64,000 bases of DNA from Marinobacterium jannaschii DSM 6295 (lineage in GTDB: Bacteria > Pseudomonadota > Gammaproteobacteria > Pseudomonadales > Balneatricaceae), in NCBI RefSeq assembly GCF_000620085.1, contig NZ_JHVJ01000007.1, forward strand, positions 1 to 64,000, in the 5' to 3' direction. Shown here in pieces: positions 1-9,826 of the stretch. The notes beneath the pieces were generated by a model. It worked only from the letters and a program-made list of their open reading frames with translations. It was not told the DNA's origin and searched no databases. Made by a program: the position numbers and the translations under genes. Numbering within the stretch: position 1 is the first letter of the stretch; each line of letters opens with the position of its first letter.

Positions 1-67
1 CTAACACTTAGTTCACGACGCGAGCTTGCGCTGTTTGCAAGCACGCCTCGTGTAACGGATTGTTGGA
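1..67 (-). other. Integron attC recombination site (cut by left window edge)
   Basis: Read on the minus strand, the site starts with ATCCAAC (67-61), which fits the R'' consensus RYYYAAC. It ends with GTTAG at 5-1, the first five bases of an R' box GTTRRRY whose last two bases lie outside the window. Between the boxes is an imperfect palindrome: CACGACGCGAGCTTGCG near 13-29 matches the reverse complement of the segment near 33-49 with few mismatches. This is the folded, single-strand architecture that integron integrases recognise. The integrase gene 640 bp away supports the call. Orientation was assigned from the usual layout, with cassettes pointing away from intI; the core boxes alone would allow either. 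Confidence 0.8.
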
Positions 68-96
68 TTGGGCCGCCGTGACCAAGTAGCAGTTAT

Positions 97-237
97 TCAT
101 GTACTTAAAGGCGGTTCCACTGGAATATAATAGGTGTGCGTTGTCTCCAATCCAGTCAAATACCCAGAAAAAACAAAGCCCATATCCCGCTTGGCCTTAC
201 GGTAAACCGCAGGGCGCGTCGTTCTGAACCAGTTCAT
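97..237 (-). CDS. Possible 46-aa cassette ORF, unknown function
   Basis: This is the only start-to-stop frame of note in the first cassette. It begins at ATG 237 (MNWFRTTRPAV...) and ends 30 bp before the attC site, a normal cassette layout. An AGGG lies 7 nt upstream of the ATG, but both it and the start codon fall inside the 198-261 palindrome, so initiation could be blocked by RNA folding. The same frame stays open upstream to about 357 but has no usable start codon there. No family is recognised. The product is basic at its N-terminus with no clear membrane segment. It may be a chance ORF across a non-coding cassette. Confidence 0.3.
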   Translation of the reverse strand: MNWFRTTRPAVYRKAKRDMGFVFSGYLTGLETTHTYYIPVEPPLST

Positions 238-261
238 ACGCGCGCCCTGCGGTTTACCGTA
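198..261. repeat. 64-bp palindrome with perfect 21-bp arms inside the first integron cassette
   Basis: The arm 198-218 (starts TACGGTAAACCGC) is the exact reverse complement of 241-261. They are separated by 22 nt holding a smaller inverted repeat (TGAAC / GTTCA). No T-run follows on either strand, so it is not an ordinary intrinsic terminator. It would form a very stable cruciform or RNA hairpin. Possible identities are a REP/MITE-like dispersed element, a translation-blocking hairpin over the small ORF, or a second folded recombination substrate. The sequence does not decide between them. Confidence 0.85.
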
Positions 262-387
262 TAGGAGAAAGGAAATCGGAGATATAGGACATTTTCTGAA
301 TCTTGCACGTTTCGGAGGCTCCTTCCCTGTTAACCCTAAAAACCACTTAACTATATGATACTTTTATATTTTTAGGGTAGGCATCAT

Positions 388-394
388 ATTCAAC
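388..394 (-). other. Candidate attI / first-cassette junction (core GTTGAAT)
   Basis: The minus strand reads TTAAAAC-T-GTTGAAT here. GTTGAAT fits the GTTRRRY core, and the preceding AAAAC resembles the L box of class 1 attI. The core differs by one base from the complement of the R'' box (ATCCAAC) at the end of this cassette, as expected if 394 to 5 is one cassette. A second match, GTTAAGT at 351-345, is a weaker alternative because it complements R'' less well. Position relative to intI (about 310 bp upstream of its start) is acceptable but on the long side. Confidence 0.45.
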
Positions 395-640
395 AGTTTT
401 AATACTGCGCATGCGCGTTTTCATGTCTTTAGGAAAAAGACAAAAAGCGTAAATTTTTGAGGAATATCAATAGCTTGCAGATACATCATGTATTTTTCCT
501 CCCTGAAAAACGAGCATGCGCGTATATATGAGATATCGCGCATTACCGATGTACTGCGCGTGTCCTTATAAGTGTCTGATTGTATAGCATATTTCCCCTG
601 ATTTTGTCATCGACTGAGGGCGGCCTTGCGCGTTATACCC
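395..640. other. AT-rich attI/intI control region with repeated GCATGCGCG
   Basis: No gene was found. The stretch is clearly richer in A and T than the rest of the window. It contains a perfect 10-bp palindrome GCGCATGCGC (407-416). The 9-mer GCATGCGCG occurs at 409-417 and again at 513-521, and a partial copy TACTGCGCGTG lies near 551. Such direct repeats beside intI could be accessory integrase-binding sites of attI or a second regulator's sites. The outward promoter for the cassettes should also lie here, but no confident pair of hexamers was picked. Confidence 0.4.
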
Positions 641-684
641 TTGGCAAACTTCGCTTTTTTGAAATACACTGTATATCCATACAG
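641..684 (+). promoter_or_regulatory. intI promoter with overlapping LexA (SOS) box
   Basis: A sigma70-like pair is visible: TTGGCA (641-646), 18 bp, TACACT (665-670). CTGTATATCCATACAG at 669-684 fits the LexA consensus CTG-N10-CAG with AT-rich middle and the full CTGT...ACAG ends. It overlaps the -10 element and lies 21 bp before the intI start, so bound LexA should block transcription. SOS control of intI through a promoter LexA box is established for Vibrio and class 1 integrons. Its action here is inferred from sequence. Confidence 0.82.
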
Positions 685-705
685 TTTTACAGGGAGTGTG
701 AAACA

Positions 706-1665
706 ATGGCAGCAAGCCCCTTTTTGAACCGGATTCGATCAGAAATCCGCTTACGCGGCTATAGCCTGGCAACCGAGAAAAGCTATATCAGCTGGATCAA
801 GCGCTATATCTACTTTCATAACAAACGCCATCCTCAAGAGATGGGCGCTGCTGAGGTACGGGCTTTTCTTAATCATTTGGCAACTAACCGCGAGGTCGCG
901 GTCAATACCCAGAAGTCAGCGCTGAACGCTCTCGCCTTTCTTTATAATCAAGTGTTTAAGCAACCCTTGGGAGACCTTGGTTTCAGGTATACGAAAAGCC
1001 CTCAGCGCCTGCCGACTGTTCTGACAACGGACGAAGTTTCCAGTATCCTTGCCCAGCTAAAGGGCCGCGACAGCATCATCTTCCAGCTTTTATATGGCAG
1101 CGGATTACGTATCAGCGAGTGCCTGCGGTTACGGGTGATGGATATCGACTTTGATCAATGCAGCCTGACAGTCCGATCAGGGAAGGGGGATAAAGATCGT
1201 GTCACGATTCTGAGCCCTTCCCTACTACCTGCTCTGCGCGCTTTAAAAGATAGCGCCATCGCTCTGCAGCAGAAGGATAACCTCAGCGGAGTAGGCCCTT
1301 CCCTGCCCTATGCTCTGGGCCGTAAATATCCAAATGCATTTCGCACCCCGGCCTGGATGTATATCTTTCCTTCGACATCGATCTCTGCGCACCCGATCAC
1401 AGAACAGAGCTGCCGTCATCATCTGCACCCTTCAGTGCCACGTAAGGCGTTGAAGAAAGCCACTATCGCAGCTGAGATAACGTACAAAAAGATAAGCTGC
1501 CATACCTTCAGACATTCGTTTGCCACCCATCTGCTGCAGGCAGGGCGTGATATCAGGACAGTACAGGAGTTGCTGGGACACAGCGATGTCGCGACGACAC
1601 AGATCTATACCCATGTGCTGGGACAGCGGTTTGCCGGTACTTCCAGCCCGCTGGATCGGCTTTGA
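706..1665 (+). CDS. intI: Integron integrase (tyrosine recombinase, IntI family)
   Basis: This 319-aa enzyme excises and inserts gene cassettes by recombining attC hairpins with attI. The tyrosine-recombinase catalytic set is complete: R135 (GLRISE), H266 and R269 (CHTFRH), H292 (LLGH) and nucleophile Y301 (IYTHV). The extra segment at about 203-245 (ALGRKYPNAFRTPAW ... RHHLHPSVPRKALKKA) is the domain that separates IntI from XerC/D and phage integrases. An open frame extends upstream to 580, but ATG 706 is chosen. It has AGGGAG nine nt before it, follows the promoter/LexA box, and gives the usual IntI length and start. The gene is intact and oriented away from attC, as in normal integrons. 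Cassettes should therefore extend beyond the left edge. Confidence 0.93.
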   Translation: MAASPFLNRIRSEIRLRGYSLATEKSYISWIKRYIYFHNKRHPQEMGAAEVRAFLNHLATNREVAVNTQKSALNALAFLYNQVFKQPLGDLGFRYTKSPQRLPTVLTTDEVSSILAQLKGRDSIIFQLLYGSGLRISECLRLRVMDIDFDQCSLTVRSGKGDKDRVTILSPSLLPALRALKDSAIALQQKDNLSGVGPSLPYALGRKYPNAFRTPAWMYIFPSTSISAHPITEQSCRHHLHPSVPRKALKKATIAAEITYKKISCHTFRHSFATHLLQAGRDIRTVQELLGHSDVATTQIYTHVLGQRFAGTSSPLDRL

Positions 1666-5017: not shown

Positions 5018-6463
5018 TTATGCGCGGATGTAGGTGGTTTTCACAACGGTGTAGAATTCCTTGGCGTAAGTACCCTGTTCACGAGGACCGAAGCTGGAAT
5101 CTTTACGGCCGCCGAACGGTACGTGGTAATCGGTGCCGGCAGTTGCCAGGTTCACCATTACACAGCCTGTCTTAGCGTTGCGTTTGAAGTCAGTGGCGTA
5201 CTTCAGAGATTCGGTGCAGATACCACCGGTCAGGCCGAAGTTAGTGTCGTTCAGAGTCGCCAGTGCTTCTTCGTAGTCTTTAACCTTGATGACACAAGCG
5301 ATCGGCGCGAAGGCTTCTTCACGGTTGATAGTCATGTCGTTAGTGGTTTCAGTGAACAGAGCCGGCTGCATGTAGTAGCCTTCTTTCTCTTCGTTCAGGA
5401 CTTCACCACCGTAAACCAGCTTGCCGCCTTCGCTCTTAGCCAGTTCCAGGTATTTCAGGTTGGATTCCATCTGACGGGCATCAGCCACGGCACCGATGTG
5501 AACGCCTTCTTTCAGAGGGTGACCCACAACCAGTTTCTTCATGCGCTCTACAACAGCTTCTACGAAGCGGTCGTGGATGCCTTCAGTCACGATCAGACGG
5601 GAGGAAGCAGTACATTTCTGACCGGTACCGCCGTAAGCGCCACCCACTGCGCACTCAACCGCGTTCTCCAGGTCAGCGTCATCCAGTACAACCAGGGCGT
5701 TCTTGGAGCCCATTTCCAGCTGACACTTAACCAGGTTAACGGCCGTCGCAGCAGCCACCTTGCGGCCAGTCTCCAGGGAGCCGGTGAAGGTCAGTGCGTT
5801 GATATCGCGGGAGTTGATCAGTACATCACCCACTTCAGCACCCGGACCCATTACCAGGTTGAAAGTACCGGCTGGCAGCCCCTGACGGGAGATGATTTCA
5901 GTCAGTGCCCATGCAGATGCAGGTACCTGGTTAGCAGGTTTCCAGACGATGGCGTTACCGAATGCCAGCGCAGGCGCGATCTTCCAGGCACCTGTTGCAG
6001 TCGGGAAGTTCCAGGGCGTGATAATACCGACAACACCCACCGGCTCGCGGCGTGTTTCGATTTCGATACCCGGACGTACGGAGTCAGCCGTTTCGCCCAT
6101 CTGACGCAGCACTTCAGCGGCGTAGTAGTGGAAGAACTGACCGGAACGGTAAGTTTCGCCGATACCTTCAGCCAGCGTCTTACCCTCTTCACGGGCCAGG
6201 ATTTCACCCAGCTCGTTTTTACGTGCGATCAGCTCGTCACCGATAGCCATCAGGACGCTGTAACGCTGTTCCAGGCCGCTCTTAGCCCACTCAACCTGAC
6301 CAGCAGTCGCCGCAGCGATTGCAGCTTCAGTCTGAGCTTTGTCAGCCTGAGCGTATTGACCGATTACGTCGCTGGTGTCGGCAGGGCTGATGTTTGCCAC
6401 GCTGCCTTTGTTACCTTCTACCCACTCACCTGCGATGTAATTACGAAAAACTGAATCAGACAT
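5018..6463 (-). CDS. NAD(P)-dependent aldehyde dehydrogenase (ketoglutarate-semialdehyde DH-like)
   Basis: This 481-aa cytosolic aldehyde dehydrogenase oxidises a semialdehyde to the acid. Family motifs are present: TPWNFPTATGAWKIAPAL, the cofactor loop FTGSLETGRKV, catalytic Glu in LEMGSKN, and catalytic Cys in GQKCTASSR. The C-terminal VPFGGRKDSSFGPREQG and the overall pattern recall the Bacillus YcbD-type alpha-ketoglutaric semialdehyde dehydrogenases. An upstream in-frame start at 6517 exists, but ATG 6463 has a perfect AGGAGGT 4 nt away and is the better start. First gene of the leftward operon and divergent from a LysR gene. Substrate is inferred only; a betaine- or amino-acid-derived semialdehyde suits the neighbours. 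Confidence 0.88.
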   Translation of the reverse strand: MSDSVFRNYIAGEWVEGNKGSVANISPADTSDVIGQYAQADKAQTEAAIAAATAGQVEWAKSGLEQRYSVLMAIGDELIARKNELGEILAREEGKTLAEGIGETYRSGQFFHYYAAEVLRQMGETADSVRPGIEIETRREPVGVVGIITPWNFPTATGAWKIAPALAFGNAIVWKPANQVPASAWALTEIISRQGLPAGTFNLVMGPGAEVGDVLINSRDINALTFTGSLETGRKVAAATAVNLVKCQLEMGSKNALVVLDDADLENAVECAVGGAYGGTGQKCTASSRLIVTEGIHDRFVEAVVERMKKLVVGHPLKEGVHIGAVADARQMESNLKYLELAKSEGGKLVYGGEVLNEEKEGYYMQPALFTETTNDMTINREEAFAPIACVIKVKDYEEALATLNDTNFGLTGGICTESLKYATDFKRNAKTGCVMVNLATAGTDYHVPFGGRKDSSFGPREQGTYAKEFYTVVKTTYIRA

Positions 6464-8104: not shown

Positions 8105-9826
8105 ATGACGACGCCTGCAGCCATTAACGCCTCCCTTCGGGGTGACAATGCACTGCCGCTACGACCAGCACGCCAGGTAATGAATCTGGAACGTCTGGGC
8201 GCCATGCATCAGAGCCGATTGAGTTTCATGCGCACTCTGGTGCGTCGCATCATGCGTGAGCGCTGGCAGATTGAGCCGGCCCGCTTTGAGCTGGACGAAC
8301 AGGGCTACGGCACTGTGGTCTACGAGATCAAGGCGCCTCACGGCCTGTTCAGTTTCGTACTGTTTTCCAACTACCTTGCACCGGAAGACCGTAACGACCG
8401 CGTAATCGCCACCCAGTGGGACCTGACCATGGCACTGGTCGATGGCGACGTGGACGATATCTATCTGGAGAAACTGCGCCAGAACGTCCCTAAACAGGAA
8501 GCCGGCCGCGTCGACTCCCGTGTTTTTGTTCTCTCCCGCGCCAACCGCAGTGCGCGTAATTTTGACTATGTCGTCAATCAGCTGGCACAGGGTGAACAAC
8601 CTGACGTGCAGAAAATTGCTGAGGTCGGCTACCTGTACCGTACCACCGCTGTGTATGGCAGCGGTAAGCTGGGCATGGCTGACTGGGAGAAAGTACGCTC
8701 CCGCTGGCCAGACTTCGCCCGTCCGTTTGCGGCCGAGATGTTTGTCTGCCTGATGCTGCGTAACTTCAGCCTGCTGCAGGCAGAACATATCGCCCAGCAT
8801 AAGGCTCCGGACAGCTACAAGCCGATGGACCCACAGATCAAGCGCTACTTCGGGATCGGTAACTCCACCGGTCTGGGTATGGCGCCTTACCTGATCAACC
8901 ATCCGCTGCTGATTAACCAGTGGGTTGAGATGCGCGAACTGGCGCTGGCACGCGTGCGTGTGCTGGGGAATATCGATGCCCGCCTGCGCACCCGTCTGGT
9001 TGAACTGCTGGCACGCAGTGAAGTCCACACCTCCCAGATCGTGACTGAAGATGAGTGGCAGACAGCTAATAACCAGCAGGTACTGCTTGATCTGGCTGCA
9101 ATGAAACAGCAGATCGATGACAGCTTTGACAACTGGGATACGCTGCTGAAATGGAGCGAAGAGAACTGCTCCCTGCAGGGCCAGGAGTTGCTGGTCTCCG
9201 TGATGCTGGAACTCTATCCGGAGCTGGTAGACGACGTAGAAGACTACACCTGCGCCGAAGAATTCCTCGACCTGGACCCGTTGATGCCGGTGCAGCAGCT
9301 GAAGGAAGTCATCGAAACCCGTTACGACTGGGCACTGGAGATCGACTTTGGTGCCGATGGCGCCCGTGAGATCTTCTGGTACCGCTCCGAAGAGAAGATG
9401 GAGCCGCGCCTGGGCAACACCAACGAAGAAGATGGCAAAGAGAAGCAGATGGCACTGGGCGTGGGTTACGCGGTGCGCAAATGCTACGACCAGCTGTGCG
9501 AATACGTTGAGCAAAACCCTGAACACAGCACTGCCCGCTTTATGGTGGCCCGGCCTAAACTGCGTGGCATCGTGCGTCGAATCCAGAGCATGAACCGCTG
9601 CATCTATGGCGACATCCAGGCGAACCTGCTGGACCGTGACGTACTGCCGATGCACCTGCTGCGCGCCAAGCTGGCCTTCTTCGGTGTCAGCAAGTTCGAT
9701 CCACGCTCCCGTCTGTGGGTACGTAATACGATGTTCCAGGGCGCGCCGCTGCTGGAAGACATTGGGAAGACGTTCAATGATGACTGGTTTATGCCGCTGG
9801 CCCCTGAACAGTCCAACCCACAATAA
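8105..9826 (+). CDS. Conserved-looking 573-aa cytosolic protein, function unknown
   Basis: I do not recognise this family. The protein is hydrophilic, rich in Arg, Asp and Glu, without a signal peptide or membrane segment. The stretch FELDEQGYGTVVYEIKAPHGLFSFVLFSNYL (about 60-92) looks like a beta-rich domain. Later parts are mainly helical. Notable clusters are IKRYFGIGNSTGLGMAPYLINHP (about 243-265) and a Trp/Tyr-rich acidic segment around 395-435. ATG 8105 is chosen over an upstream start at 8075 because GAGG lies 9 nt before it, after the leader hairpins. It ends 24 bp before the next gene and the two probably form one operon. Codon use matches the neighbours, so it does not look recently acquired. 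Confidence 0.8.
   Translation: MTTPAAINASLRGDNALPLRPARQVMNLERLGAMHQSRLSFMRTLVRRIMRERWQIEPARFELDEQGYGTVVYEIKAPHGLFSFVLFSNYLAPEDRNDRVIATQWDLTMALVDGDVDDIYLEKLRQNVPKQEAGRVDSRVFVLSRANRSARNFDYVVNQLAQGEQPDVQKIAEVGYLYRTTAVYGSGKLGMADWEKVRSRWPDFARPFAAEMFVCLMLRNFSLLQAEHIAQHKAPDSYKPMDPQIKRYFGIGNSTGLGMAPYLINHPLLINQWVEMRELALARVRVLGNIDARLRTRLVELLARSEVHTSQIVTEDEWQTANNQQVLLDLAAMKQQIDDSFDNWDTLLKWSEENCSLQGQELLVSVMLELYPELVDDVEDYTCAEEFLDLDPLMPVQQLKEVIETRYDWALEIDFGADGAREIFWYRSEEKMEPRLGNTNEEDGKEKQMALGVGYAVRKCYDQLCEYVEQNPEHSTARFMVARPKLRGIVRRIQSMNRCIYGDIQANLLDRDVLPMHLLRAKLAFFGVSKFDPRSRLWVRNTMFQGAPLLEDIGKTFNDDWFMPLAPEQSNPQ

Follow-up and report, generated by a model that had tools for sequence, protein, structure and literature searches.

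A chromosomal integron of Marinobacterium jannaschii whose integrase probably acted on attI sites at different loci

Introduction

Integron cassette arrays and their attachment sites have been described in several arrangements. In the usual picture, each integron has one attI (PMC3607928). Cassette arrays without intI, the so-called CALINs, lie elsewhere in the genome, and by one account a functional IntI can mobilise them in trans (PMC12444791). In delta-attI cassettes of mobile class 1 and class 2 integrons, an attI piece (14-18 bases for attI1) replaces the attC inside a cassette, and in one such record a cassette is followed by a complete attI1 (PMC12901181). Cassettes without an ORF have been reported to have promoter activity (PMC6557892). 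IntegronFinder detects no attI outside class 1 (PMC9024848).

We analysed the first 64,000 bases of contig C6 of Marinobacterium jannaschii DSM 6295, hereafter the window. Its left end contains an IntI gene, an attI beside it and a cassette ending in attC, as expected of an integron. The locus resembles the sedentary integrons of the Vibrio cholerae superintegron type in the extra segment of IntI, in the attI beside intI, in the divergent cassettes with attC and in the LexA box at the intI promoter. At the same time, the genome has cassette arrays away from intI, as CALINs are, and attI sequences away from their usual place, as in delta-attI cassettes, and the first cassette is non-coding, like the ORF-less promoter cassettes. 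The locus is probably the integrase end of a chromosomal integron, and the sequences make it likely that the single intact integrase of this type acted on attI at different loci.

Results

An intact integrase behind a LexA-type box

The preliminary description of this DNA had claimed an intact IntI with a LexA box over its promoter. Its first part is borne out: the product of the gene at 706-1665 scored 398.8 bits against the integron integrase profile TIGR02249 (cut-off 265), and its alignment with the solved integrase 2a3v (E 2e-83) spans the full length, the segment ALGRKYPNAFRTPAWMYIFPS being covered. We take ALGRKYPNAFRTPAWMYIFPS to be the integron-specific segment of IntI and likewise assume the identity of the catalytic residues. 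Regarding the second part, the perfect box stands and the promoter is less clear, being a weak pair that overlaps the box; sigma-70-like pairs in positions 1-2300 were no commoner than in shuffled sequence (3 vs a shuffle mean of 2.6). CTGT-N8-ACAG occurs in the window only at this position, where 0.84 occurrences per 64 kb are expected by chance, that is, about 5e-4 for a given 40 bases.

Perfect boxes were found just upstream of intI at 10 of 18 related loci checked, of which 17 are distinct (L032 and L108 are one locus taken twice), and the ten include the broken genes at L107 and L109 and the incomplete one at L116. This recurrence is as expected from published surveys, in which putative LexA sites were found in 624 of 1,103 integrase upstream regions (PMC3108266). 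Elsewhere in the same genome, CTGTATATN4ACAG occurs only on C4 (twice) and C17, and their gene context revealed no tie to known SOS genes. The two strong LexA-type boxes on C4 (G000:C4:95567 and C4:95737) are 170 bases apart, in a 3-kb stretch without an ORF of 150 aa. As far as can be read from the DNA, the box upstream of intI appears fit for SOS control of the gene.

Table 1 Features at the left end of the window
Feature	Position	Strand	Basis
attC closing cassette 1, truncated by the contig end; G^TT crossover between 5 and 4	1..68	-	hairpin and R''/R' boxes
Cassette 1, ORF-less, 389 bases between crossover points	5..393	-	longest ORF wholly inside is 46 aa
Conserved covarying hairpin, then T-rich tract (perfect arms 198-218 / 241-261)	155..300	-	fold, covariation, no Rfam family at gathering score
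attI with its control region, 394/393 crossover	394..684	+	aligned with relatives' intI-linked attI, C14 and C35
First attI repeat GCGCATGCGCG	407..417	+	alignments and pattern search
Second attI repeat AAAACGAGCATGCGCG	507..522	+	alignments and pattern search
Possible integrase promoter TTGGCA-18-TACACT	641..670	+	weak sigma-70-like pair, overlaps LexA-type box
LexA-type box CTGTATATCCATACAG	669..684	+	perfect CTGT-N8-ACAG, ends 21 bases upstream of intI
intI, intact integron integrase, 319 aa	706..1665	+	TIGR02249 profile and alignment to 2a3v

The cassette array continues on other contigs

Both attI repeats are common to the window and to the intI-linked sites of relatives. Across the crossover lies cassette 1; a protein-coding reading of this cassette was rejected, given its short ORFs and the gaps between homologues, which are not multiples of three. 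At the contig edge, where an attC hairpin had been noted before, we find that hairpin on the minus strand, with its R'' and R' boxes and with a complete copy on C36 (L016:3371-3441, -32.5 kcal/mol). It was also considered as the last attC of the array, a reading rejected on its minus-strand orientation and on C36 and C37, from which it closes the first cassette. The covariance model R1 did not report it at E <= 1, and the call rests on the R''/R' boxes, the hairpin and the recombination footprint. No minus-strand promoter-like site, as a cassette promoter (Pc) would be, appeared in positions 1-2300 at the scan threshold.

Position 1 is the end of C6, one of the 39 contigs of this 5.18-Mb genome. 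The terminal 95 bases of C36 and of C37, and no more, are identical to window positions 1-95, which looks like an assembly-graph overlap. Because both contigs share these bases and have additional attC sites oriented as expected (three on C36 and one on C37), the array continues left of position 1. The preliminary description had predicted this extension, which is hereby confirmed, the order of the array and the choice of which contig joins C6 being ambiguous; its reading of the locus as a chromosomal integron boundary also holds as far as sequence can tell, and the attI, the structured ORF-less first cassette and the extra attI sites had escaped it.

Model R1, built on 13 seeds, gave five attC at E <= 1 genome-wide among the 150 of 1,402 candidates that were scored, that of cassette 1 not being among them. 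Two earlier versions of our attC finder recovered little of the known array, and an initial alignment, of seven attC sites, was of low quality; the third version, which was used, gave 9 matches in 58 kb of shuffled sequence vs 3 in 56 kb of the window.

The minus strand of C36 encodes ORFs of 268, 504, 88 and 137 aa. The 268-aa product has TPR repeats, and the 504-aa product (L016:925-2439) matches PADLOC HEC-07 (1.4e-26), making this cassette ORF a candidate defence gene; the ORFs of 88 and 137 aa had no match in Pfam or PADLOC. On C37, a 425-aa group II intron reverse transcriptase (L017:635-1909) adjoins the attC, and the ORFs of 161 and 190 aa had no matches. A second group II intron reverse transcriptase adjoins an attC on C35 (L021:1273-2622).

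A conserved hairpin in the first cassette

The minus strand of positions 70-392 folds at -118.5 kcal/mol (z -6.13). The cassette 1 family comprises ten copies in 5 of the 116 family genomes, and nine of the ten lie directly at an attI, the copy on C15 of the same genome being at another attI type. Across six homologues, both partners have changed in 16 of 41 pairs, and none of 500 shuffles equalled the observed value of any of five measures; this covariation is strong but not independent, because the same six sequences served for both the alignment and the structure. In all six, the stem is followed by a T-rich tract, which is weakest in the C15 copy. The hairpin matched no Rfam family at gathering score. 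Its matches to microRNA families were weak (E 0.013-0.24, well short of the cut-offs) and reflect the perfect palindrome, and model R2 found no further hairpin in the loci searched beyond those already known. Elsewhere in the window, a cspA thermoregulator RNA (RF01766, 29608-30076) was the sole Rfam match at gathering score. The hairpin cassette is a candidate for an unnamed structured RNA tied to attI.

Extra attI sites in the same genome

The genome has one intact integrase of this type and at least three similar attI sites, each on a contig of its own (C6, C14 and C35). C14 matches window positions 1-421 with its first difference at 396, two bases past the 394/393 crossover; beyond the crossover, the two attI have little in common apart from the repeats, and no integrase match was found in the 11.6 kb that follow the C14 repeats. 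The third site, on C35, is followed by a first cassette different from cassette 1. Between its repeats and the contig end lie 729 bases with no integrase, part of which is sequence also present at the end of C30. The C14 contig ends after one attC, and C35 has two attC matches, one with E 0.047.

Among the three copies, identity is 82-91% in the two repeats and the box, vs 48-55% in the rest (48% between C6 and C14 outside the three motifs). Since the motifs were picked after seeing the alignments, shifting the motif mask is the sole control, and 1 to 4 of 324 shifts do as well. At both orphan sites, C14 and C35, the box is off by one base (CTGT-N8-ACAA). A second integrase, broken and of another type, lies on C30 (L020:9498-10456). 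A related attI region on C15 (L019:8988-9213) has repeats of another kind and is followed by a first cassette that is a 68% homologue of cassette 1.

One cassette at intI-linked and orphan attI in two species

Cassette 1 is the same at C6 and C14, with 0 of 389 bases differing (5-393), and on its far side the sequences differ (C36 vs C37). A comparable case was found in a second species, G016, taken as Motiliproteus sp. SC1-56. Here the same first cassette stands at the intI-linked attI of C22 and at an orphan attI of C32, with two differences in 409 bases (at 1406 and 1742 of L237:1394-1802). On the attI side there are many differences, the last at 1391, and from 1806, beyond the attC, the sequences are unrelated; the copied stretch is bounded by both crossover points. 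We found no IntI match in the 10 kb around the C32 site, and the scan revealed no LexA-type box at this orphan attI. Exactly one cassette unit is therefore common to an intI-linked and an orphan attI in each of two species, which suggests that the remote attI was used in trans.

In a third genome, G067, the likeness extends over attI as well as cassette (93% over 427 bases, with a contig end truncating one copy); this pair is compatible with plain duplication, and we thus did not count it as a trans case. Nine other multi-locus genomes had no near-identical cassette at two attI within the fetched flanks. G016 also has a third hairpin copy (L247:6794-6939, C32 near 130791), in a 270-base piece without attI whose ends are not crossover points, and part of the hairpin cassette may therefore move or be copied otherwise.

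Solitary attI sites across the family

We designed a strict two-repeat pattern on these attI sites and searched 116 family genomes with it. Matches were found in 16 genomes, that of M. jannaschii included, and the reversed pattern gave 0; a stricter three-part pattern had no match and missed the known site too. Merging both strands of palindromic matches left 23 attI sites: three beside an intact intI (C6, G101 and G136), 19 without one, and one cut by a contig end (G074:C25, which ends 133 bases after the attI repeat and is not counted as orphan). Integrase remnants occur right behind two of the 19 orphan sites and at 3 kb from another. Searches of plasmids, phages and viral contigs gave no match.

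Around the relatives' 20 sites, R1 gave 40 attC matches. Of these, 38 lie on the crossover side, all of them correctly oriented, and the remaining two, both at L170, lie on the opposite side. The model's own seeds account for 12 of the 40; without them, 26 of 28 matches are on the crossover side. A crossover-side attC accompanies 14 of the relatives' 17 orphan sites; L178 and L175 have none (at L175 only 1.3 kb was seen), and at L171 the only one is weak and distant (E 0.2). Some relatives' loci have at least two attC and no intI nearby, such as L169, whose site orientation was confirmed from its sequence, with eight and L184 with six. L170 itself (G017:C8) has two attI-like sites about 3 kb apart, near 5977-6034 and at 9018, in the same orientation and with an attC between them.

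The attI unit is repeated within genus g7, where nine further copies match the 353-base stretch from crossover to box at 81-91% over at least 309 bases, and others less well or in part. The unit measures roughly 350-450 bases; similarity runs past the LexA-type box and then diverges, and several copies keep a perfect box with no integrase behind it. In V. cholerae, the cassette and integrase promoters partly overlap and the cassette promoter is outside the SOS regulon (PMC3948777), so the box region may be kept for cassette expression where the integrase is missing.

Many orphan-bearing genomes lack a clearly intact integrase of this type. At E <= 1e-16, none was found in G017, G073, G033 and G023; in G015 and G028 the integrase is broken; G059 has one of 64% identity with an in-frame TGA and an intact one of 50%; and in G060, G074, G075, G076, G082 and G035 the intact integrase is only 44-51% identical. 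Orphan sites in such genomes must be either relics or sites served by another enzyme, and use in trans cannot be general now, since most orphan-bearing genomes are of this kind. G073 has a weak tyrosine recombinase next to its attI (L171), sharing only 25.6% identity with an integron integrase. In the same genome, a single contig in which no integron integrase was found, a 695-aa ORF (L171:6891-8978) starts about 30 bases from the attI crossover.

Discussion

The mechanism that we propose would start with the cleavage of LexA, upon which IntI would be made. IntI would excise cassettes as single-stranded attC hairpins and insert them, in cis or in trans, wherever an attI has its repeats, such that one enzyme could feed several arrays. 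Solitary attI sites would have arisen as platform copies from which intI was lost and in which the recombination repeats and the promoter region were kept. With less confidence, we guess that a structured leader RNA or a terminator between attI and array is produced by the ORF-less first cassette. A wider proposal is tentative and, in our estimate, has somewhat less than an even chance: integrons of this family may commonly be distributed, with scattered solitary attI, each with its own control region, fed in trans by one SOS-triggered integrase, and with some sites having a non-coding leader cassette whose conserved hairpin RNA would end in a terminator-like tract and set array expression.

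The orphan sites could instead be relics of whole integrons that were duplicated long ago and lost intI from some copies, with the shared cassette spread between arrays by homologous recombination (gene conversion). Both the integrase remnants at relatives' sites (92 residues in G075:C29, 43 in G028/L185, and 90 in G082/L180 some 3 kb away) and the many orphan-bearing genomes without an intact cognate integrase agree with this history. Yet in both species, identity stops no more than two bases past the attI crossover and, at the other end, within attC-consensus bases; gene conversion tracts are not expected to end at both crossover points twice, and the attI motifs are better conserved than the rest of the site. 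We consider this account unlikely, and the possibility that cassette 1 was wrongly attached to C14 or C6, through assembly or a mixture of strains, as very remote. C6 and C14 do start at the same base, four contig ends share the 95 bases, and the contamination estimate of the genome is 2.15%, but the junctions of cassette 1 with attI lie about 395 bases inside each contig, the two attI and their flanks differ, and the G016 cassette lies inside contigs of 377 kb and 303 kb, less than 2 kb from the end of the latter.

It is also conceivable, if rather improbable, that the hairpin cassette is a mobile element targeting attI crossovers, in which case its presence at two sites would say nothing about ordinary cassettes. 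Such an element would account for nine of ten copies lying directly at attI, for the cassette being found at two attI loci in three genomes (in G067 with one copy cut by a contig end) and for the hairpin fragment away from any attI. Against it, the cassette ends in an attC-type hairpin and forms a unit from G^TT to G^TT as any cassette does, and C35 and 14 of the relatives' 17 orphan sites have crossover-side attC where R2 finds no hairpin at E <= 0.1. Integration in trans at attI by the single intact integrase is thus the reading that we prefer.

The departure from a sedentary chromosomal integron is that several attI of one type occur in one genome. Unlike CALINs, which are defined by attC only (PMC9024848), the arrays described here keep a complete attI and control region, and unlike in delta-attI cassettes, a complete attI heads an array at another locus. 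The first cassette differs from the ORF-less promoter cassettes in its long covarying hairpin, its T-rich tail and the lack of a minus-strand promoter-like match within it. In the open-access articles searched, we found no report of complete solitary attI heading arrays, which is weak evidence of absence. The chief interest of the locus lies in the set of integrase-less attI and in the evidence from two species of one cassette at an intI-linked and an orphan site. If many CALINs sit on working solitary attI, they would serve one integrase as additional landing sites, and a simple and testable cause would be at hand for conserved CALIN positions like those described for Xanthomonas (PMC12444791); the attI motif found here makes a direct test at the heads of CALINs possible.
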